Below are positions 38,019 through 61,500 of a stretch of 64,000 nt of DNA, in pieces. The notes beneath the pieces were generated by a model. That model was not told where the DNA came from and made no database searches. It was given only the letters and a program-made list of their open reading frames with translations. The stretch covers positions 5,955,501 through 6,019,500 of the forward strand of contig NC_091096.1 of NCBI RefSeq assembly GCF_024713975.1, in the 5' to 3' direction. Source of the DNA: Paralichthys olivaceus. Its lineage: Eukaryota > Chordata > Actinopteri > Pleuronectiformes > Paralichthyidae. Both the position numbers and the translations under genes were made by a program. Positions within the stretch are counted from its first letter, which is position 1, and each line of letters begins with the position of its first letter.

Positions 38019-40206
38019 ATGGGTCTAATCAGCCGACTGATGGAACAACATCAGTTTTTACTGCACCAATGTTTTTCACTGCCTTTCGCATTTTTGTTTT
38101 ATTTTTTTGCTAAACGTGGATATCTGTCCTTGAGGTACAGGTATGTAATCACAAATACAAATGATTCATTCAACATATAAGTAAATCATCAGTGTGCGAT
38201 GGAGAATTATTATTCTGTGCACCTTTTTAATAGATCACATATTTCAGTCAACACATTATGTGATATATATTTGGATAAAGTTTCTAAAAGGTTCAATAAG
38301 ATTGGTTTGTATAATTACTCCAACTGAAATGTGCTGCCCACTGTTTTTACATTTACTGATATTCATTATTTTTTTTAATGTGCTCTTGATGAATCTGAAT
38401 CTCTAATCGTGACACATTTTCTGTTGTTCTGTCTACAGGTACGTCTTTGTTACTGTTGGAGGATGTGTCCTGGCAGTCGCCACGATGGGGATCTACAGTT
38501 CTCTTCTGTTTGTGTCCACCTTTGTCTTTATTCTGCTCATTGGCTCGGTGGATCCCAGCAACATCCACATCTGGGCGTTTGGTATCCAGATGCTGTGGCA
38601 AACCTTCTGGCACCTGCTTATACAGTACGGTGAATGTTACCTGAATGAGCCTGTCAGCGTGAGGTATTAATCTACTGGTTAAAAAGTCTGTCCAGTGACG
38701 CCTTCATGTTTTGCCAACATATCCAGCATCCGTTATGAATAATAAAGTTATTGGTCTGGATAATTATTAATGCATTTAAAAGTTAAACGAAAATAATGCA
38801 CAATTTACCACTCTTCTGGTAATATTTGATTTAAACTACAATACCCAGGTGTTTTCATCCCACAGACTATGAAATAAAGGAGCCACTGGAAATGTATTTT
38901 CTATAATTCTGTTATTAGACAGATTGTTTTCCACCGACTGGAAAAGTTTTTTATTTCTGGATTTCACAAAACAAAGTGTCCTTGAGCTTGAACCACATTA
39001 CAGTGTTCTCATTAGAGGTCCAAGCTTTCCATGAGCTCTTCCAGGACATCTCATCCATTATGACTAATGTGATCAAGAGCTCCAGAACAGCTGCTAAATG
39101 GACTGAACTGTTAGTGTGGAGGAGGAACTTTCAACACCGGTGTCTGGACACTTCTAATCTGGATATCTGGATACAAACATGAAGGCCACAGGTTTTTAAA
39201 ATGTATTTCTCTTTCTTATAAAGAATAAATTACCTCTTGTACTTTCAGGTTGTTTTTGGCGGTGTCCTCTTTGATGCTGCTCACTCAGAGAATCACCTCG
39301 GTGTCCATGGATGTTCACGAGAAACAACTTGTGTTCACATTTAAAGCATCGTCCCTAAAGACGAGTTGTGTCCTGCTTCTCCCTCTCGTCAGCTACTTCC
39401 TCAGTGTCACCACGCTGCTCGGTGGCCCTCTGGGCTCCTACAGACAGTTTGTGTCCCACATGGAGGAAATCAGCCTCGGCCCTTCACCCAGTCCACTGGG
39501 CGTGGTGTTCCAGAAGTTGATGCAGGTGTTATTGTTGGAGTTGGTAAGGTTTTGTCTTGTCCACTTTCTAAAACAAAACATCTATGATCCCAGTAGCTCT
39601 GCTTCTGTTTGTGGCTTCCTTTGGGTTTGGGCTCTTGCGTTGGTTTTGAGGATCAGGTATTACTCTCACTGGAAGATCAGTGAATGCCTCAATAATGCAG
39701 CTGGGTTTGGAAATTGCAAAAATTCATCAGGAGACTCCCAAGAGTGGAGCGACTTATCTGATGGAGATTTCTGGACCGCTGAGGCGTCGAGCCGCATGTC
39801 ACAGTTTGCACGTCGATGGAACGTCACCACGGCTTTGTGGCTGCGTAGAATGGTTTATACGAGAAGCAAACATTTCCCCTTGTTCATGACTTTCGGTTTT
39901 TCAATGTGGTGGCATGGTTTGCACTTAGGTCACTTTGTGGGGTTTATGACTTGGGCATCAGCAGTGAAAGCAGACTACCATATACACAGGTACTTACACC
40001 CAAAGCTTTCTTCAACATGGAGGAGGCTGCTGTATACGTGTGTAGGCTGGGTAAACACGCAAATGATCATTACGTGTGTCGTTGTTGCTGTAGAATTAAG
40101 AAATATGTCCGGCTTGAGACTTTTGTCTGTTACATTTGTAGGTCTGTTTCCTCTTTGTAATATGATTCTACTTATTATCTTATTCAAACTCAATACAGTG
40201 AGGTAG
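38019..40206 (+). CDS. mboat4: ghrelin O-acyltransferase (GOAT)
   Basis: ER multi-pass MBOAT enzyme that octanoylates Ser3 of proghrelin using acyl-CoA. Exons: 38019-38134, 38439-38663, 39249-40206. Phases agree and the product has 432 aa (human 435, also three exons). It aligns with human GOAT throughout: FSLPFAFLF at the N-terminus, RYVFVTVGG, QMLWQTFWHLL, SSLMLLTQRITS, YYSHW, AAGFG, and FSMWWHGLHLG. The MBOAT catalytic pair is present: Asn in RRWNVTTALWLRR (human N307) and His in WWHGLH (human H338). ATG 38019 matches the human start; a probable acceptor ends at 38009. The last exon carries 318 residues. Found between gldc and coq2, with no visible operon-like link. mboat2 and porcn are relatives but lack this overall match. 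Confidence 0.95.
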
Positions 40207-41331: not shown

Positions 41332-43674
<2,343 letters not shown>

Positions 43675-45428: not shown

Positions 45429-48400
45429 ATGCCAGAAGGTATTTATCACTGTCAGTTTTGTTATTGAGTGTTGATTCAGTGCAGTGATTTAAATCAAGTG
45501 AAGTGTTCAGTGTTGTCTTTTGCTTCCTCCTCAGATTCCATGATCTTTTCCGTCTCTGGCCACATGATGCACAGGAAACCTGCCCCCGAAGAATCCTCCG
45601 TCAAGTCTTTCTGCTGCAGCCACTGCTCGCTCGTCTTCACCTCCAAGATCTCCCTTTTTCAGCATGTGACCTTCGAGCATGGCTCGGAGTCCAACGAAGA
45701 AGAAGCTGACGACGAAAGCAACAATGCGGGAAGTATTTATCTATGTCACCACTGTGCTTTTATAGCTCTTAGCCGGGATGAGTTAAACGAACATGAGAAA
45801 CAGTGTGCTAAGAAGCCAGAGAATCAAGATCAGACCAGGAGTCCTATTGTTTCTGAAAACCATGAGAGTGAAATAGGTGCAGTCATGTCTACCTCAAAAT
45901 CTTCATGCATCCTTAACTCGTCAAAAGATCTGAAAACTTACAAGGGGCCGCTGCAAATGCAAACCATCACTAAATTCTTAACAGCAGCATCTCGATCACC
46001 CTCAGTGAAGTCCGCCGAGCGCCCAGTGTCTCCGAGCAGCACCAAAGGAACGCTGCTCCTGCAACAATCTCCCTCAGACCCCAAACCAAGCAGCAGTGGT
46101 GTGTTTAAAGTCACCGCAAAGTCCATGATTGATTTGAATGCAACCCCAACTACCCACTTTCTGCTAGATAACAACATTTTACCCTCAGAGATGAAGCCCA
46201 AGGAACAATGCAAAGACTCAGATTATGAAATCTACAAGAAGAGGAGCAGCCGGGAGTGCCCGGAGAGTTGCCCTGCTAAAAAAACAAAGTCGGACAAAGG
46301 GGAGTTGAAGCTCCCGGAGAAAGAGAACGCAAGTAAACAACCGTCCAGCAGCACTGACTTTTCATTTGAATTTAGCGACGATGAAGACGAAAAGAAGGTT
46401 AATCTCCTAAATAGAGATGCGGAAAACCCAACCATTTATTTTTGCAAGCACTGTGACTACAGTGATGCTGTCATGAGACGCATGTCCTTCCACTACCAGA
46501 GCGACCACCCTTATATAAGATGTAGCGCCGTGTACATTCAGGATCCCAGTGATCAGAGCGTCACCTTTCGCTGCCTGGAGTGTCCCATTGAGTTTTTATC
46601 TGAAACCGAACTGAAGAGACACTACACAGAAAATCATCCAGACGCCCCAAAGGTATTCATGATGCATTCCTGTGAGCTGGTTTACAAATGTTTTGTGTGT
46701 AGGTTCATTAGCAATGAATTGAAAGCCCTGACAGAACATTACAAAGAAAAGCACCCAAAACATAAAGCGGATAATTCCTTGTTCTACTGCAAATATACAG
46801 TGACTGGATGCCAAGATGGATCGTCACAGTTGAAAACATGTGGGAAAACGCACAGCCCAGAAACATCAGAGGGGATTTCTCCCAAAAACGCAGATGCACA
46901 ACCTGAGGAATTAAAAAATGCCCCCTCGCCCCTACACTCTACCTCCAGAGGAGAGCGTGTGGTTTTGTATCATTGCAGCAGCTGTAATTTTAGTCATAAG
47001 TCAGCTGTCGGTATGCACGTCCACTATCAGAAAAAACATCCAGATGAAACAATAACGATCAACAAAATCAAACAGTCGGCTTCTGTCGTATCACAAACCA
47101 CCTCCCAGACGACACTTGAGAATTCATCGAATGTAACGGAGAACTCTACACCTCAGAAGGACGTCTCCAGTTCTTCCAAAATGGAAAAAAGCAAAGCTGA
47201 GGAGTCTCAGCAGAAGTTTTCACCGTCTTTAATGACTCTGAAGAACACAACAGACACGCCTAAGACTCGTTCAGAATCTAGCAAAACAGAGTTAGTTAAA
47301 TCTGCAGCGGGCAAAAAGAGAACAAAGACACCTAGCAAATGGAACAGGCAGCTGTCTGTGGGAATCGACGGTTCATCCTCCAGCTCACTCGATAAAGTGT
47401 TTTACTGCCAGTTCTGCACCTTTTCAAATGCCAACATCAGAAGCGTCGTTGCTCATCATAACATGAAACACGCTGATCTCGGACTAACGGGTACTGAGGA
47501 GGTCTGGTGGTATAATAACAAGTTGCAAAAAAAGAAACTGCAACGTGAAGCCGAGACCTCAACAAGTGCTGCGTCTTCTAATTCTAAATCTAGTGAAAGA
47601 GTTGAGGTGTGGAAGGAAAGAAAACGGCAGAATGAAGAAGCTAACACAGCGGCTGCCTCCAAGACGGAAGTTAATCCCTATGAATGTGTAGAAAACTTGT
47701 TTTACTGCCAAAAGTGCAACTTTGGAAATGTAAGTTTAAAAGGAATTATGAACCATCAAGCCAAAGTTCACCTGGACCTGAATGCAAACCATGAATCTAT
47801 TCTTAGACACACAGAGCTGATTTGTGCAAAAATTAAAACGTCTCACTCAAAGGACTCATCCACATCTTTTCGTCTACCTCTCCCGCTCATGAATGAAGGC
47901 GACAGAGAATGTTTTTTCTGCCACTTTTGCAACTACAGACATAATTGCGTGAGCCAAGTATTGAGGCATTACATCAGCAGACATCCTGGGTTTGTGGTTA
48001 AGAACCAAGAAATCCAACAATATACTTACACGCTTCTCAAGCAGATGGAGGAATCGCCTCCGGAAACGTCTGCAAGCCAAGAAGATAGCGCATCCCCTCT
48101 GGAAAAAGTGGACAGGAAGAAAAAAGTAAAAACACTGGCTCAATGCTCGTCTGTGTCAGCGTCGTCCTCAGTGGCGGCCACGAAGACACAGAGGACCCTC
48201 AAGTGTTATAGATGCACATACAGCACTCAGTACTTGAATCTGTTGAGGAGGCACATGTTGAAGATTCACAGGACAAATCGCAGGACAACTGATATTTTGA
48301 GAGTGTGTTATAGACAAGGGATGTTGGAGTCAGGGTATCACTGTGACAGGTGTGTCTTCTCCCACAATAATGCAGCAGCATTGTTTCAGCACAGCCAGGA

Positions 48401-51400
48401 ACAACATCCAAAACGTAAAGTCAGCCTCGAGTACATTTCCACCAGGTTATATGTCGGTCCCGATTCATTAGTTCCTAAAAAGAGAAAAAAGCCTAAAACG
48501 ACACACACGGGTGACGTGAGTGATGGTGATGGAAGATTGGGACAAAATGACACTAAGACGTATTCGTGCAGAGCGTGTTCGTTTGAAGGAAGCTCAATGT
48601 CAAGTGTCACACGCCACTGCCGGGCTGTGCATCCCTGGTCTGTGAAAGAAGACGGCTCCGTCCTGAACGTCATCACAACCAAGAAGTCAAGTCCACACAT
48701 TGTGGAAGACCAGACTGAAATGCCAGAACCATTCGACACCTACCAAGTTCCTCTCGGACACAGTGACTCACCTGGTTCATCTCATGAAGCTGCAGATACT
48801 TCAAAAAGGCTCAAGTGCAGATATTGCCCTGCAGTGTTTCGCACCTGGCACGGCCTCAGCACTCACACTGGAATGAAACACCCACATGCTGAAATTGATG
48901 CTCCAGCAAGCATGCATGTATTCAGTTGTCCGCATTGTACTTACATCAACACCAGCTATCATGGAGTTTTAACTCACTGCCAGATGAGGCATCCTGACTC
49001 TGAGTCCAGGGCAGACAGTCATTACATGGATGAAATGCATCTACGCAGGTGGAACTTCTGTTTAACAAAAAAAGGCTCAGGGGACACCTCAAGATTCAGC
49101 GGCTACTTGTGTGAAACCTGCCCTCAAATCTGTGCAACTCTGGAGAAGCTGAACAAGCACTGTGAGGGAGAGCATAACAAGACCGATCCGAACACTGTGC
49201 CAAACAGCGTGCTCAAACCGTCAGCTGTAAGAAAACTACACCAACCCATCACCTACAGCTCTCTGGGATCAGTGTCAAAGGCTTCCTTCTTGCATAAGAA
49301 AAAATATCCAGTGCTGAAGTGCCAGCTGTGCAGTTATACTTGCAGCACAAAAATTGGGCTCAGTCGCCACTTGCGTGTTAACCACAGGAATTCATCTTAT
49401 TCACAGTTTAAGGATTGTGTATACAAGTGTGCCTTGTGTCCGAAGTCGTACTTCACCAAAAAGCATCTTGCACGCCATTATACTAATAAACACGGAAAGC
49501 GCTCCCTCTTGAAATACTTTGCACCCGTGTACCAGAACGTCAAAGCGCCAACGTCCTCTGACTGCCCTTCAACAGAGCAACCAGAAAACACTTCTGAGTC
49601 TAGTACAACAGGAGAAGACGGCAAGATATTAGTGTATAGGTGTCCGAGCTGTCCCTATGTTAACGCTAGCTACCATGGAACGCTCACTCACTGCCAAATG
49701 ATGCATCCTGCTCTCATAGTCAGAGCAGACGAACTTCAAACAGACAGAATATTCGAAACCGACATGGTCCAGTGTTGGACGGGTAAAGGTTCAAAGCATA
49801 AAGGCTTCATGTGTAAAAATTGTCCACAAATTCATGCATCGTTGATGCAGCTGAAAATCCATTGTGAGAGGAGCCACAAACGGGCCAAACCAGCAGCTTC
49901 TGAACTTTCAGCTGAAACTGAAAAACTGCCTGACGAAGGCTCCAGGAGCTCAACATCAGAGACTTCCTCTTTACAAATGAAATCTTCCCCAGTGAACACC
50001 ACAAAAAGGAACCTGAATCTACAGCTAGGCTCTCCTGAAAAACAGCAAGTGTCCAAACAAAACAATGAAATTATGTACAAGTGTGACATGTGTTCCTATG
50101 TAGGAATATGTAGAAAGTACCTGCACTGTCACTACAAAAACATGCACAAGTTGGATGCATTCCGCATATACAAGCAGCTGGAGAGGTATAACAAACGCAA
50201 ATACTACACGCCTAAAGCTCCATCCGAAGAAAGGGTTAGATGTAAGAAGTGTACAAACTTAGCATTTGACTCATATCAGCTGCTCATTGTCCATTACACC
50301 AACTTTCATAGCTCCAACTTTAAAATGGACTTTACAGTGTTAAAGCGAAGAACAATAAAGACCCCAGGAGTTTACAAGTGTGACCACTGCAGCAAACACA
50401 TAATTGGAATCAGGAAGCTGTGTTACCACCTGGAACACCATGAGGCAACTATGAAGACAACGGCAATGGATGCAAAGTCAACGGCATCAGTTGTCAGGAC
50501 GACAACACCAGAGGCCCCATCCAATGAAGTGAGTTAACTCTGCCCACATAAGCATTTTCATTCATCATCTTCTTTTCACCTACACTTGTAAGTTTTTAAT
50601 TTGCTGTGTTTAATTTTCAGATTCAACGAGATGAGTCGCCCATGTCAGAATCTGTGCAGGACCTGACTCATTGGAATGCGACGCCAGAGAAGACGTTAAC
50701 TCTGCAAACAGGTTCTCTGCCGTCGCCTTCAAGACTCACTGATACAGAGCTGCCAGAGGAATCGATCGAAGACAAACGCACTTGCCGACAGTGTCGACGG
50801 ACGTTCATGTCCCTGAAAGGTTTGCGCTCACATGAGCGCAGCCACGCGGCACTGGCAGCCATCAAGAAACTGGACAAACGGTCTACCTCACTATTGAAGA
50901 ACAAGTAAGAATTTTTTAAAAATTGGTCCATCATTTTATCTGCTTATGTAAAAAATGACTGCTCTTTTATTACACACTACTTACATGTGTTAGAGCCCCC
51001 CCGATGGTTTCACTGTACTTTACACACATTTCAATTGCTTTACAAAGCTAATTAAATTCTGTAATTAGTAATTAATACAATCAAATATAATCAATATGTT
51101 AACAGTTTCATTAATTTAGAATTGTTAGTATTCTCTTCAACAGTACAATATTAACATTTTACAAATGTGACTTCCTTTATGTCCAGAACTCTTCATGAGC
51201 TATTTGTGACCATCTGAATTATTTCTGTTCAATCTCTACAGCATTGATGAATACGTCGTCTACAAATCTGGGACCCTCAGGCCGTACCTCTGTAGTTTCT
51301 GTGCCTATCGGACGACCGTCTTTGGCCTGTGGAGGAGTCATTTCATCAGAAAACATCAAGGTGAGCATCCACGACGATGATTGATGTATCATTGATTCAT

Positions 51401-54400
51401 CAGGTGTCTTCACTTTCACCTGAGGAATTTATTAAAGTATTAATGAATTAGTCGTTGAAAGCATCAAAGGAAATGTTTGACATGTATGATATTGTTATTT
51501 CATATATATTTTATATATCATATAGATATTTTCATTTTACCCACTGTAAAGGTTTTACTATGTTGTGAAAATAAAGTGAAAAAGTTGTGGAGGTCATCTG
51601 GTTTATGTTTGAACACTCATTCTTGGCGTTAGCATTAAGTGTAGTTAGTTAATATAAATCCATCAGTCCTTTGCACAGATTACACAGCAGTTGCTTTGAG
51701 ATATTTCATCATGTGTTTTTGTCTTTCGTTCCCTGTCTATTGCTGCTGGATGTTTAGATGTGCTTATGGACGATGTGGAGACTTATAACGAAGATGAGGA
51801 GAACTCACAGAGAAACAACCAGGAGCCTCCTCAACTATCAGAGGAAAACAACAATTCGCCTGAACCTGAAGAAGAAGTTGAAATGATTGAAAGCAAGTCA
51901 TCCCACTTATATAAACCACATATCTGTCGAAATGGATATAAAATGCACACGTGTGGCTTTGGCTGCCGCACTGACAGTCTGTGGTTTGTTATTGTGTGAC
52001 AGGATCACTGTACCTGGAGCCTCCAGATGTGCAGCGGCAGCTGAACCACTACAGCTTGATGGCGCAGACTCGTGGTGTCTCCAAAGCCAAGGTGCAAGAA
52101 ACCAATTTACCCGAGAGCTGTTTGCTCCACTGTGAGTTCTGCAGTTTCAGCACTGGACACCTTTCCAGTGTGCGACGACATTACTTAAACCGCCACGGGA
52201 AGAAGATCCTCAGGTGTAAGGACTGTGAATTTTTCACTGGATTAAGGTGAGTTACCTCCACAATGAGGAATTCTCTTTATGTAAAAATCCTTCTCATTGA
52301 TGTGTTTGAAATCCAAGATATTCTTCAAAAACGGAGCAAAATTAGTTAATGTCCCAGAGACACTGCAGACACTAAAATTGTTTTCCTCGTATTTTGTTTT
52401 TCAGGGAGTGCCATAAAGTCCAGACGCTTAAATATAATAAAGTAAATATAGTGAACTATAACGTGAACAGGTAGTTTAGGCATATTGTAGATGTAAATAT
52501 TGTAAATTGTAAAATTTCAAAACATTGAATCTGAATCTTGTGAGTTAAAAGGGAAACATAATTACGATGATTATGTCAACATAAACTTTGAGTTAACAGA
52601 TTCTCCGTCACTCTCTGACTCACATCCGCATCACCTGGTTGTTCTATCGTTTATCAGGAAAACCCTGGAGATGCACATGGAGGCTGGTCACTCTACATTT
52701 CAGTCAGAACCGACTCATCTGAGGGACCTCCGCTGCCCGCTCTGCCTCTACCAGACCAAGAACAAGAATAACATGATTGATCACATCGTCCTACATCGTG
52801 GTACGATAGACACTTGACAGGATCCATCATTCCCAGTCCACTGAAATCCTTATTTGACACGTTTGAGTGAATGTTTTCGTTTCTCTTGTTTTCAGAGGAG
52901 CGCGTTGTGCCGATAGAGGTGCGTCGCCCGAGGCTGTCCCGTTACCTCCAGGGCATCATCTTCCGCTGTCACAAATGCACTTTCTCCAGCGGTAGTGCTG
53001 CAAACCTGAGTTCGCACATGATGAAGCACGATGACGCCAAACCCTACAAGTGTCGGCTGTGCTACTTCGACTGCACTCTGCTGAGCGACTTAGAGGCACA
53101 CCTGAGCGATAAGCATCAGGTGAGGATTTGTCTCTAAACCTGCAGGAATTCCTTTGTGTCTGAAATGATACATTATCCACTTTGAATGTACAGGAATTTT
53201 AGAAATGAGAGGAAAACGTAGGCAGCTTCTTTGTTTCAGGAGCCATTCCACTGGACACGGGGCAAATCTGTTACGTAAAGCCAAATAAATGTGACCTGTT
53301 AAAATCTGGCAATAGTGATTTTCAACACTAACAGGTGCAGCAGAATCGACACTACTTAAATTCAATCATAAATGAAAACAATCTAAAAGTCTAAAAATAA
53401 TTCCAGGCCTTACAAAGTCTTCATATGTTAACATAATACGTACTAGGTCTTAAATATGTTCCGGTCAGTCTTATTGTAACGCTCACATAATGCTACTTCA
53501 GTTGCACTTTTTGTTTTTCAAGAGGGATGTGGTAGAAATGGGTAAATTAGTTCTTTTGTAAGTTTGATTTAAGTTGTTTGCTTTTCTTTTATACAGGTTG
53601 AGAGGAACCATGAGCTTGTGGGTCAGGTCAGCCTTGATCAGCTAGAGGCACAGGGTGGTAGAATACAAGAGGAAGAGGAAGAAGAAGAGGAGGAACTGTT
53701 ATCAAACTCTGAGCAGCACAACAGCAAGAGGGGGGATGTTAACATGGAGTTTGTCACAGGCTGTAATGAAGTTCCACATGAAACAGGAGTTGCAGATCCG
53801 GCAGAAAATAACATTGCTACTGGTTCATCTCATGAAGCCGCAGATACTTCAAAAAGGCTCAAGTGCAGATATTGCCCTGCAGGGTTTCGCACCTGGCACG
53901 GCCTCAGCACTCACACTGGAATGAAACACCCACATGCTGAAACGCTACAGTTGAAGGAAGCATGTCTGAAGCATGAGCAGGAGACTGCAAAGGGACAGAT
54001 GATCGAAGAGACGGTAGAAATAAATGTCGGCAAAGGAAACACCGCAGATGACCAGTCTGAGGAATGCGGCGGTTCAGAGAAAGAGAGGAACGTGAACCAA
54101 GCCCAACTCAAAGTGAGAGGCAGTGAGGAAAACAGTGCAATGTCCACACGCCAAAGAGAGAAGGCAGCCGAGAGGAGCTCAGCAACGTATGATGAGAGGA
54201 TTGGTAAAAAAGAGTCCAAGATAAGTTTTAAGACGCTGCAGCGCAGAACGTCAAACACTGAGTTGAGAGCAGAAGAAAAAATACTGCGTCACATCCTTGT
54301 GTTGGATGAGGATAGCAGCGTCCGCAAGATGCACAACAAGGCCGAGCAGGAGAGAACAGTCAAGAAAGAGCTGAACATGGAGACCAAGGTTCTAGATAAT

Positions 54401-55738
54401 GTTCTAAGTGAGCTGCTGGACGAAGATCGTAAAATCTCTTTGGCCCAAAAACTGACAATTAAATATGATTCAGAGGCAAAGAAAAGTCCCGTGCAGGGGA
54501 ATAACATCAGGAGCCAGGAGGATTTAAAATGTGAAAGTCCTTCACTAACGCCTCTTCCCACATGTGTCCAACTGAACACAAACCATGAGGAGAGCTCAGG
54601 ATTCTCATCAACACACTGCAAAGAGGAACGAGTGAGCCATAGGGAATATGGTGAGGAGCTATCGGACCTATATGGAGAAATGCCTGTGCTTGAGAATGAA
54701 TATCTGAAGGAGGCATCGTACCCGCAAGTCTGCTGCAAGGAGGAAGACGAGGATGAGCTTGGGGAGCAGCAGGACAAAGAAGATGAAGTGATGACTGAAG
54801 ACGGCGAGAGCGGATGCAAAGATCGGGATCATGAGGAGGGAGACAACATTGAGGAGTCCAACATTCCACGTGTGGACAAAAGTAAGAATTTAAATTAACC
54901 ACAATATATCTATTGAAGTCCAACACAAACTCATTGCTTTCTATGCAAAGGTGTCTTCAGACACTTCAGAAATCAGTCCCCTAAACCTGACAGATCCAAA
55001 AACGATTCCCTGGGAATTTAGTGGAAAATGTCAAACAATGTAAAAGAAAGTGTCACATGCTTCCAACAAGTTGCGTGGATATCTGTCCTGTAGTTTTTGC
55101 TTTATCCTGCTGACCAATAAACAACAAGAACTGGGGAGAGAACATAGCCACCTTACTGTTACACACAGATTGCATTCATAATTTTGCCTCAGTTTTGATG
55201 TTTACTAATGGCTTTGATTATTTAGACTTGATACCAGTCACCAGATAGTATGAACAATGTTTGAGAAAACCAGGACAATATGTGAGTGAACATTGTTCAA
55301 GTGAAAGCCCCTTTGTAGTTGGTAATAATTTAGTTATTTAAACTTTCCAGTAAAAATGCCAAACATTTGCAATTACAATTTTAGTTTTAACCTCTACTCT
55401 TCTCACCCTGTCCTATTAAACTTCATCTGTTACACCTCAAAGACTCTTAACCCCCTGAAAATCGTACAGTTTTCTGACCCCTTGATTAATTGTTTCATTA
55501 ATTCATTACTCATTATTTAATAAACTGTGTTGTAGCAGTTGTTGACTTGAAATGTGACATGACACCAGGCTAAACTCATCTCTCTTGTTTTTCAGGTGAG
55601 TTCACAGCTGCAGATGGAGCTTCTGAAGTCCTGTGTTCCTCAGTCGCACAAAATAAACTTTACACTTGTGAACTTTGTGGACGAAACCTCGTGAACGGCT
55701 CTGATTTGAAGCGTCACATTATGAGACATGGCATATAA
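45429..55738 (+). CDS. znf462: zinc finger protein 462 orthologue
   Basis: Very large nuclear C2H2 protein; human ZNF462 is a chromatin-linked developmental regulator. Exons: 45429-45438, 45535-50528, 50621-50904, 51242-51360, 51758-51892, 52003-52246, 52658-52800, 52896-53119, 53597-54881, 55596-55738, all in phase, 2,526 aa (human 2,506). The 4,994-bp exon carries most fingers, many with the pattern HYQKxHP or HCQMxHP. The C-terminal half identifies it: RYLQGIIFRCHKCTFSSGS, KPYKCRLCYFDC, then LVGQVSLDQLE, and the last finger CELCGRNLVNGSDLKRH all match human ZNF462 as I remember it. ATG 45429 (MPEDSMIFS) uses a 10-nt coding piece of exon 2; if that is wrong, ATG 45540 would be used. The intron after 51892 appears to be GC-AG. 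Exon 9 is Glu-rich and holds a finger almost identical to one in exon 3 (separate entry). Confidence 0.92.
48772..48894 (+). repeat. znf462 duplicated finger, copy A (large exon)
   Basis: A 123-bp in-frame block encoding CRYCPAVFRTWHGLSTHTGMKH plus a 14-residue lead-in. It matches 53820-53942 at 121 of 123 positions. Similarity stops abruptly at both ends. Confidence 0.97.
53820..53942 (+). repeat. znf462 duplicated finger, copy B (penultimate exon)
   Basis: Same frame and length as copy A. It differs by one silent change (GCT to GCC) and one replacement (Val GTG to Gly GGG). The flanks are unrelated to those of copy A: acidic, low-complexity sequence. C2H2 spacing is intact, so the finger should fold. 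Confidence 0.97.
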
Positions 55739-58542: not shown

Positions 58543-61500
58543 ATGTCAGACGTAAACACACCTGGAGGGGATGGCGGCTCGTTCTCCTCAAAGATCATCA
58601 AAGTGGTGTTTTTCATCCTGCTGCTCGACCTGCTGGGATTCACACTGATTCTACCTCTTCTGCCGTCCATTTTGGATCATTATGCACAAACAGGGGTCAG
58701 TAGTCTTCATTTTCTTTTAAGAAATAACCTGTTCTCTGTTCTCTCTATAAGAGAAGTGTAGTGATTTAAAATACACATTAGTGCATTTACTCATTATTGT
58801 CAGAGCAGACATAATAATAACATACTGAAATTCCAAGTTTATACTAGTGTAATGTTTTTATCTGAAGGTCTGAGTTAGTCACACACATGTCCTCTGTGCA
58901 CCGTGTGTTTCTTCTGCTCACAGTAAATTCAAATGAGGATCATTCGGTGTATCATGTGATCTCCTAATTTTCATGACTGATTAGATATGCAGCATGGGGC
59001 TGATTGTGCTGAGTCACACTGAATCGACCTGTTTCCTGCTTTATTCATTTGTCCCTGTGTGTTGTCATGTTTGTGTGTTTTCTTTTTTTCGTGCAGGATG
59101 TTGTGTATCAGTCTCTGCAGAGCGTTGTGGACTGGTTCAGGGAGGTTGTTGGGATTCCTATGGAGAAGAAATATAACAGTGTCCTGTTCGGAGGTATATT
59201 TAACTCATCTCGGCCTTTCGTAGAATTATGATCAAGTAAAAATAAACTTTTGGATATTGTTTTTTATTTGCGTGCTGATTATGTTGCTCTGCAGGTCTGA
59301 TCGGATCACTGTTCTCGCTGCTGCAGTTCCTGTCATCGCCTATAACAGGCGCTCTGTCAGACCGCTATGGCAGACGACCCCTGCTCATTCTTACTACAGT
59401 GAGTATAACACCACTCCTATTTTTAATACACTCTGCGTGTTTTACATTAAATGTAATGACTTAAGAATATAAATCTCAGTATTCTTCAGTGTAAAAGTAT
59501 CAGTCAGTCACTGGAAAAATGGGTCTGACAGGGTGCTTTGTGTTCCTTGTGTTCCTTGTGTTTCCCAGTTGGGGCTGATGTCCTCCTATGCTGTGTGGGC
59601 AGTTTCGCGGAGCTTCAGCATGTTCCTTTTGTTCCGGGTAATTGGGGGAATCTGCAAGGGCAACGTCAGCCTCTGCACCGCCATCGTAGCCGACTTGCCT
59701 TGTCCCAAAGCACGAAATAGAGGAATGGTATGCATACATATTTGTGGCCTTTACAGAAAATGTTTTGTTGACAGAGAACATATTGAAATAATCTACATTT
59801 GTTTAAATTTGTTTCTCGGACCCTCACATTTCTTGGTGTTACCTCATGTTGCAGGTAACACGTTTATGTGAGAAAAACATTTATTTTCATTTTGTCGGGA
59901 ACAGGCCATGATTGGCGTCGCCTTCTCCTTGGGCTTCACCGTGGGGCCTCTGATGGGCGCCTACTTCGCCCTGAGGTCCAGAACAACAGGAGGTGTCTTC
60001 TACCAGGCTCCAGCTCTGCTCGCCTTGGCCTTCAGTGTTGCTGATTTGCTCTTTATCTGGCTCATGCTGCCCGAGACACTCACAAAGGATGTCAAGGTCG
60101 GCTGCAGAAAGATTCACACTGACTAAAAAAATCACAGACGGGTTTATTAAAGGAGCCGTTGTCTCTTTTTCGAAGGTTCTAGATTCTAGACAACTAGAAT
60201 CTAGAGTAGATGCTAATGGAAGAATAACAATAGGGAAGAGAATCTTGAGTGAGCATCTTTTATTTTTTTTAATTCGAGACTAAACTTCCGGAGGCATTAA
60301 AGGGATCCAAATAAAATATTCTGAAGAAGTCTTTTAGGAAGTGAAATCAACATTTTAAACTACTGAACCAATTCCTGTTCCACATTTTGATATTCTATAT
60401 ATTTGTATGCCAGTGACAGCCAGTGGTTGTCCTTCACAATATCTCAAGAAAGCCTTGAGGATATTTTTATACATTTGGTACAAACTCTGACATAAAGATG
60501 CACTGATTATATTTTGTTGGTCAAAGGTCAGAGTTGCTGTGATATCACAAAAGCAAAAATATCTCAGGTAATCCTCCAGGGAATTCTTTCTGATTTGCTA
60601 CAAACATATAGTATAGTATATTTTGGTGAACAAAAGTCAAAGGTTAAGAGTCGGGGGGTGTTAACAGTACAATTCTAGTTAATTTTGTACTCTAGTATTC
60701 TCTAGCCTCTCTTGTTGCCACATTTGTTTCTCGTGCAGCTTCTAATTTTTTGTTAAGCCAAAAGCTATTGTTTTTGTTTCACCCTACAGGCTTCGTCTTC
60801 AGGGTTCGAGAGCTCCAGGAACCTCCTGAACCCATTATCTTTGTTCCGTTTTTCAGCTGTTACCCAGACAAAAGATCCCCCTTCAAAAGAGAGTGAGTAC
60901 TGCACACACTGGATTCCTGTCTGAGGCAGGAGGCGTGCTCTCATTGGAACAGTTTTTGAAGCATGAATAAACCTTGGCACGCTGACAGAAGGTTGGATTG
61001 TCTCTCTGCAGGAATGCAGAGGCTTCGAGTGTTGGGCCTTGTTTACTTTTGCTACCTCTTCCTGTTCTCTGGTCTGGAGTTCACGCTGAGTTTTCTGACT
61101 CACCAACGCTTCCAGTTCACAAGGTGCAAACTCCACCATAAAGTTGTGTTCTCTCTCAGGGGAAGCGAATGCACCTGTGCAGTAACCTTGTGTTGTCTCT
61201 CTCCACAGTATGCAGCAGGGAAAGATGTTCTTCTTCATTGGTGTCATCATGGCTTTGATACAGGGGGGATACGCTCGCAGAATTAAACCTGGGCACCATA
61301 TCAAAGCAGTCCGTGTGGTAGGAGCCTTCAGGACATGTAAAACATACATGTGTTGATGAGTCATGAGGCTGCAGCACAAATGTCTCTGAACTGTATTTCT
61401 TGTTTTTAGGCGATCATCACACTAATTCCAGCTTTTATCCTAATCGGGTTATCATGGAATATGACAATGCTGTATGTCGGCTTGGCGTTATACTCGTTTG

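Follow-up and report, generated by a model that had tools for sequence, protein, structure and literature searches.

How did two exons of one gene come to carry nearly the same zinc finger? The window, by which we mean the whole 64-kb stretch of DNA analysed, holds two copies of a 123-nt segment: copy A at 48772-48894, inside a large exon, and copy B at 53820-53942, at an offset of 5048 nt, both on the forward strand, with the open frame of each running in the same phase. A repeat search of the window and an alignment find 121 of 123 positions matching, at exactly the coordinates and in the shared frame that the initial annotation had given. Here, we propose that the finger of copy A was recently inserted, by duplication, into the penultimate coding exon of its own gene as a templated, non-homologous patch, an explanation that we consider likely. 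It is built on two sharply edged copies, an assembly search that turned up no further place, a reading frame that is kept, and a related gene in which the corresponding exon encodes no finger.

The two copies and the gene that holds them

Copy A comprises 14 residues ahead of the first Cys, the C2H2 finger CRYCPAVFRTWHGLSTHTGMKH and then 4 residues, and copy B is the same stretch with one silent and one replacing change. The silent difference is T/C at 48791/53839 (GCT/GCC, Ala) and the other is T/G at 48835/53883 (GTG/GGG), giving Val in A and Gly in B. Both changes had been described correctly, but the Val/Gly swap, earlier placed next to the finger, lies inside it (C-x2-C-P-A-[V/G]-F), directly ahead of the conserved Phe. 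Outside the copies, the flanks show no similarity above chance and are as unrelated as had been claimed: identity over 120 nt is 23% on the left and 26% on the right, and gapped local alignment scores were reached in 100 of 500 letter shuffles for the right 100 nt, in 269 for the left 100 nt, and in 384 and 469 for the right and left 300 nt, respectively. One 7-mer is common to each side, but with scores at chance level we reject flank homology hidden by gaps.

The pair also stands alone in its surroundings. In a self-blastn of the 64-kb window with the dust filter on, A/B is the sole dispersed pair at E<=1e-6 (E 1.5e-55); the same search of a 40-kb stretch of contig C18 gives one dispersed pair, of 63 nt at 79%. 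A DNA search of the 588-Mb, 25-contig assembly, in which only the best candidates were scored, finds two places, A and B, and with just these two found among the candidates scored, membership of a repeat family is unsupported. Among the 406 pairs formed by the gene's 29 fingers (defined by the regular expression C-x2-C-x12-H), A/B is an outlier at 98.8% DNA identity, against a median of 38%. The suggestion that all other fingers have strongly diverged is therefore right in setting A/B apart but not in implying equal distance, as the next two pairs share 65.5% and 61.9% of their bases.

Our model of the host gene, built on splice sites and phase, has nine coding exons on the + strand. Translation from the large frame's first ATG gives 2521 residues; an upstream exon beyond the model may hold the real start codon. 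The large exon spans 45540-50528, counted from that ATG, with an uncertain 5' limit (the frame is open from 45468). Splice sites and phase then place coding exons 2 (50621-50904), 3 (51242-51360), 5 (52003-52246), 6 (52658-52800) and 7 (52896-53119), and exon 4 (51758-51892) ends at a GCAAGT donor that implies a GC-AG intron; this intron, 51893-52002, begins with GCAAGT after an exonic AAA, and its removal joins coding exons 4 and 5 in frame. Copy B is hosted by coding exon 8 (53597-54881, GTAAGA donor), which apart from the copy encodes 387 residues with 24% Asp+Glu. This is the acidic exon of the initial annotation; it is, however, penultimate rather than C-terminal, being followed at 55596-55738 by a terminal coding exon, also on the + strand, that carries the last finger, YTCELCGRNLVNGSDLKRHIMRH, and the stop, and that matches a terminal finger in a paralogue on contig C18. 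Because the terminal finger is present in its own exon, we could rule out that copy A replaced an ancestral terminal finger. Elsewhere in the window, three of six open frames scanned have Pfam matches: MBOAT at 39229-40206 (+), UbiA prenyltransferase at 42815-43123 (-) and MFS_1 at 59473-59871 (+, sub-threshold). The gene content agrees with the initial annotation's view of the animal as a teleost.

The gene belongs to the ZNF462 family, as its large exon (45564-50528) matches two Pfam models named for ZNF462, PF23225 (E 1.4e-74, 13 stretches) and PF23075 (E 2.6e-45, 7 stretches). When 279 residues around A were searched against the assembly at the protein level, six matches came back. Three fall in the host gene (the query's own place, copy B and an internal repeat); of the others, two are on C18, namely a gene at 36% identity (E 9e-28) and a second, weak match, and one, also weak, is on C16. 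The C18 gene, within C18:9674001-9714000, resembles the host gene in finger order through much of the large exon and in several later exons (tblastn), and the two have in common a VxLDQLE motif, a terminal finger exon, and PF23225 and PF23075. It differs in having a shorter, fingerless counterpart of B's exon, and in matching PF23223, PF23077 and PF23224, the models of the N-terminal ZNF462 fingers, for which the host gene has no match in its scanned exons (the scan took in exons of the model, and the upstream 43.9-45.6 kb was only read in three frames). These further finger models point to the C18 gene as the fuller ZNF462 and to the host gene as a divergent paralogue, so that the name znf462, assigned earlier, fits the family and not the precise gene. 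To call the extra finger a change to a regulator that is otherwise conserved goes too far, since both this paralogue and B's exon diverge strongly from their C18 counterparts. An open frame in the same 40 kb of C18 may be rad23-like. We found no paper on a teleost ZNF462 paralogue and, judging by the titles listed, none on an intragenic duplication of this kind; no fish orthologue was present among 16 candidate stretches from a prokaryote collection and 5 from a viral collection, as expected of such collections.

Direction and age of the copying

Comparison with the C18 paralogue suggests which copy came first. In the large exon of that gene, A's place is taken by a finger at residue 1292 (TYQCTVCLSEYNSLHGLLTHYGKKHP), and this finger has the same downstream neighbour in both genes, VYKCRHCPYVNSRIHG... 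in C18 vs VFSCPHCTYINTSYHG... in the host gene. The C18 exon matching B's encodes RNFELMGRVNLDQLE... (VNLDQLE...) and acid-rich sequence in an open frame of 124 residues, with no finger encoded, and a looser pattern applied in three frames from that exon to the terminal finger found only the terminal finger. As C18 has a counterpart of finger A but no finger in its version of B's exon, we take copy A to be the old one, a donor still at the ancestral position, and copy B to be the new one, the pre-insertion state being read from one distant paralogue. Against 32 C18 finger candidates, B scores best with the C18 finger at A's place (64), and A has that finger second (64) after the adjacent C18 finger (66); it is on positional homology, and not on score alone, that we base the direction.

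The copies differ at 1 of 26.7 synonymous sites (dS 0.0375, 95% Poisson interval 0.001-0.21) and at 1 of 93.3 nonsynonymous sites (dN 0.0107), and their divergence over all sites is 0.016 (95% Poisson interval 0.002-0.059). If 2-8e-9 substitutions per site and year are assumed, all sites together give an age of about 1-4 million years (limits 0.1-15) and synonymous sites alone 2-9 million years (upper limit about 52). What is dated in this way is the last common state of the copies, whether set by insertion or by conversion, and because there is one synonymous difference in 26.7 sites, copy B is probably either young or recently homogenised. That a finger was added by a recent duplication has gained support, both from the fingerless C18 exon and from a synonymous divergence near 0.04, albeit with a wide interval.

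The initial annotation had left a choice between a young copy and one kept alike by gene conversion. Under the latter, A and B would stem from an older duplication, and they do sit in direct orientation, 5 kb from each other in a single gene, their two differences could post-date conversion, and the same gene holds an older internal duplication. Yet identity ends sharply on both sides without gapped similarity beyond, 123 bp is short for homologous conversion, and the exon of the C18 paralogue is without the finger. A young copy explains the likeness without long-term conversion, against which the abrupt ends and the short tract also speak, and we regard conversion as very unlikely.

Reading frame, junctions and mechanism

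The insertion that we favour would have left the exon's frame intact. The 123 nt (3 x 41) make 41 codons, and deleting exactly 53820-53942 leaves the exon frame open with no stop. Codon-usage scores were obtained by training on the large exon, copy A included, versus introns and 3' flank. They are highest in the same frame before B (0.167), in B (0.315) and after B (0.272); before B the next frame scores 0.108 and has one stop, and one intron and one 3' stretch, both within the training set, score negative. The 313-codon part after B was left open in none of 2000 letter shuffles.

On this proposal, the acidic penultimate exon received a duplicate of a 123-nt piece of the large exon, 5 kb upstream, where the original stayed intact. 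The most likely route is a templated, non-homologous insertion in which a double-strand break was repaired by a templated patch, or by template switching, without flank homology. Because donor and insert agree in orientation and phase, and the length is 3 x 41 nt, the frame, the splice sites and the terminal finger would all have been kept, and because it sits in frame within an acidic, poorly conserved stretch, it would probably have been tolerated. Before the insertion, the empty site would read AACATTGCTA joined directly, in frame, to CGCTACAG.

One feature of the junctions is not predicted by a simple patch: GCTAC stands flush with the insert on both sides, at 53816-53820, where its last base is shared with copy B, and again at 53944-53948, both on the + strand. 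Such a pair hints at a target-site duplication, and flush 5-bp repeats are found by chance at 16 of 1142 exon positions (about 1.4%), so an insertion of a transcript fragment by retrotransposon machinery, the class 1 of Onozawa and Aplan, has to be weighed. As marks of this LINE-1 type of insertion, their account (PMC5110952) gives a target duplication (5 bp or longer), a poly(A) signal, a TTTT/A site and 10-40 A residues. Of these, the insert as we read it has just the 5-bp repeat, with no A tract, signal or TTTT/A site. Removing one GCTAC along with the copy, moreover, makes the net gain 128 nt, and the older frame then stops 12 codons past the Asn codon at 53810, with 28 stops over the remainder of the exon, against a present frame that keeps its coding signal for 313 codons. 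If the GCTAC repeat predated the insertion, the empty site would read ATTGCTACGCTACAG. The frame and the missing poly(A) together rule out GCTAC as proof of retrotransposition, and we give this origin only a slight chance. Because a target-site duplication would put a stop in the older frame, we take the GCTAC pair provisionally as an older tandem or as chance.

Two further alternatives fare worse. Copy B could be absent from the animal, an artefact of assembly or phasing, as everything here comes from a single assembly; but a misjoin would not normally amount to exactly 41 in-frame codons with two substitutions in an exon that is otherwise intact and has its splice sites, and we find this highly improbable. 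That B is the original and A its copy is scarcely credible, for although the two A/B differences alone give no polarity, in the C18 paralogue a finger occupies A's place and the exon corresponding to B's is fingerless.

Predicted product and comparison with known insertions

Under the duplicative insertion that we favour, the predicted protein has one more complete C2H2 finger. Copy B matches the pattern C-x2-C-x12-H-x4-H with the conserved Phe and Leu and keeps the four zinc ligands, and Pfam scores in its exon fall under the curated cut-offs (PF13894, 16.9 of 27; PF00096, 14.4 of 25.2; PF23225, 18.7 of 27). AlphaFold without an alignment was uninformative, yielding a confident finger for neither copy (mean pLDDT 48.2 for B and 49.6 for A). 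Among solved structures, six sequences match at E<=0.1, with fingers of BCL11A and ZFP91 (best E 0.0056), and none of the six has copy A as its best stretch. We think that the extra finger is most likely tolerated with little effect; a new contact made by it is possible.

The same gene also holds an older duplication of a two-finger block, at 48918-49190 and 49632-49892 (model residues 1130+1191 and 1368+1425). The blocks share 45% protein identity over 91 columns, and both best match one C18 finger pair. A more speculative reading, which we think improbable, is that this paralogue grows by repeated internal copying, with the older two-finger block followed by the young finger in the acidic exon, so that in one lineage a chromatin-type regulator would be gaining a separately placed reader finger, possibly selected or polymorphic. 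If copy B is as young as it looks, whether it is neutral, polymorphic or selected can be asked in living populations.

C2H2 genes usually gain fingers by tandem duplication within one finger-array exon. Here too a finger is gained by internal duplication, but it is dispersed to another exon, outside the arrays, and is not in tandem. The case shows that C2H2 genes can gain fingers other than in tandem. It is a clean, apparently young, in-frame example of a domain copied between exons of one gene, with edges free of repeats or introns.

As to mechanism, A/B would be a young example of an insertion type already described. For class 2 TSIPs, the account of Onozawa and Aplan (PMC5110952) describes templated insertions of the break-repair type in human cells and populations, marked by end-joining junctions and no target-site duplication, and reports templated sequence insertions of 73-414 bp (median 191) from repair in cell culture. 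The features in common are these: a short piece, whose 123 nt fall within the experimental range, has been copied to an unrelated site between unrelated flanks, with an intact donor and no poly(A). The differences are that the donor here lies 5 kb away in the same gene and not at a distance, that both ends are in coding exons with the frame kept, and that GCTAC repeats stand flush with the insert.
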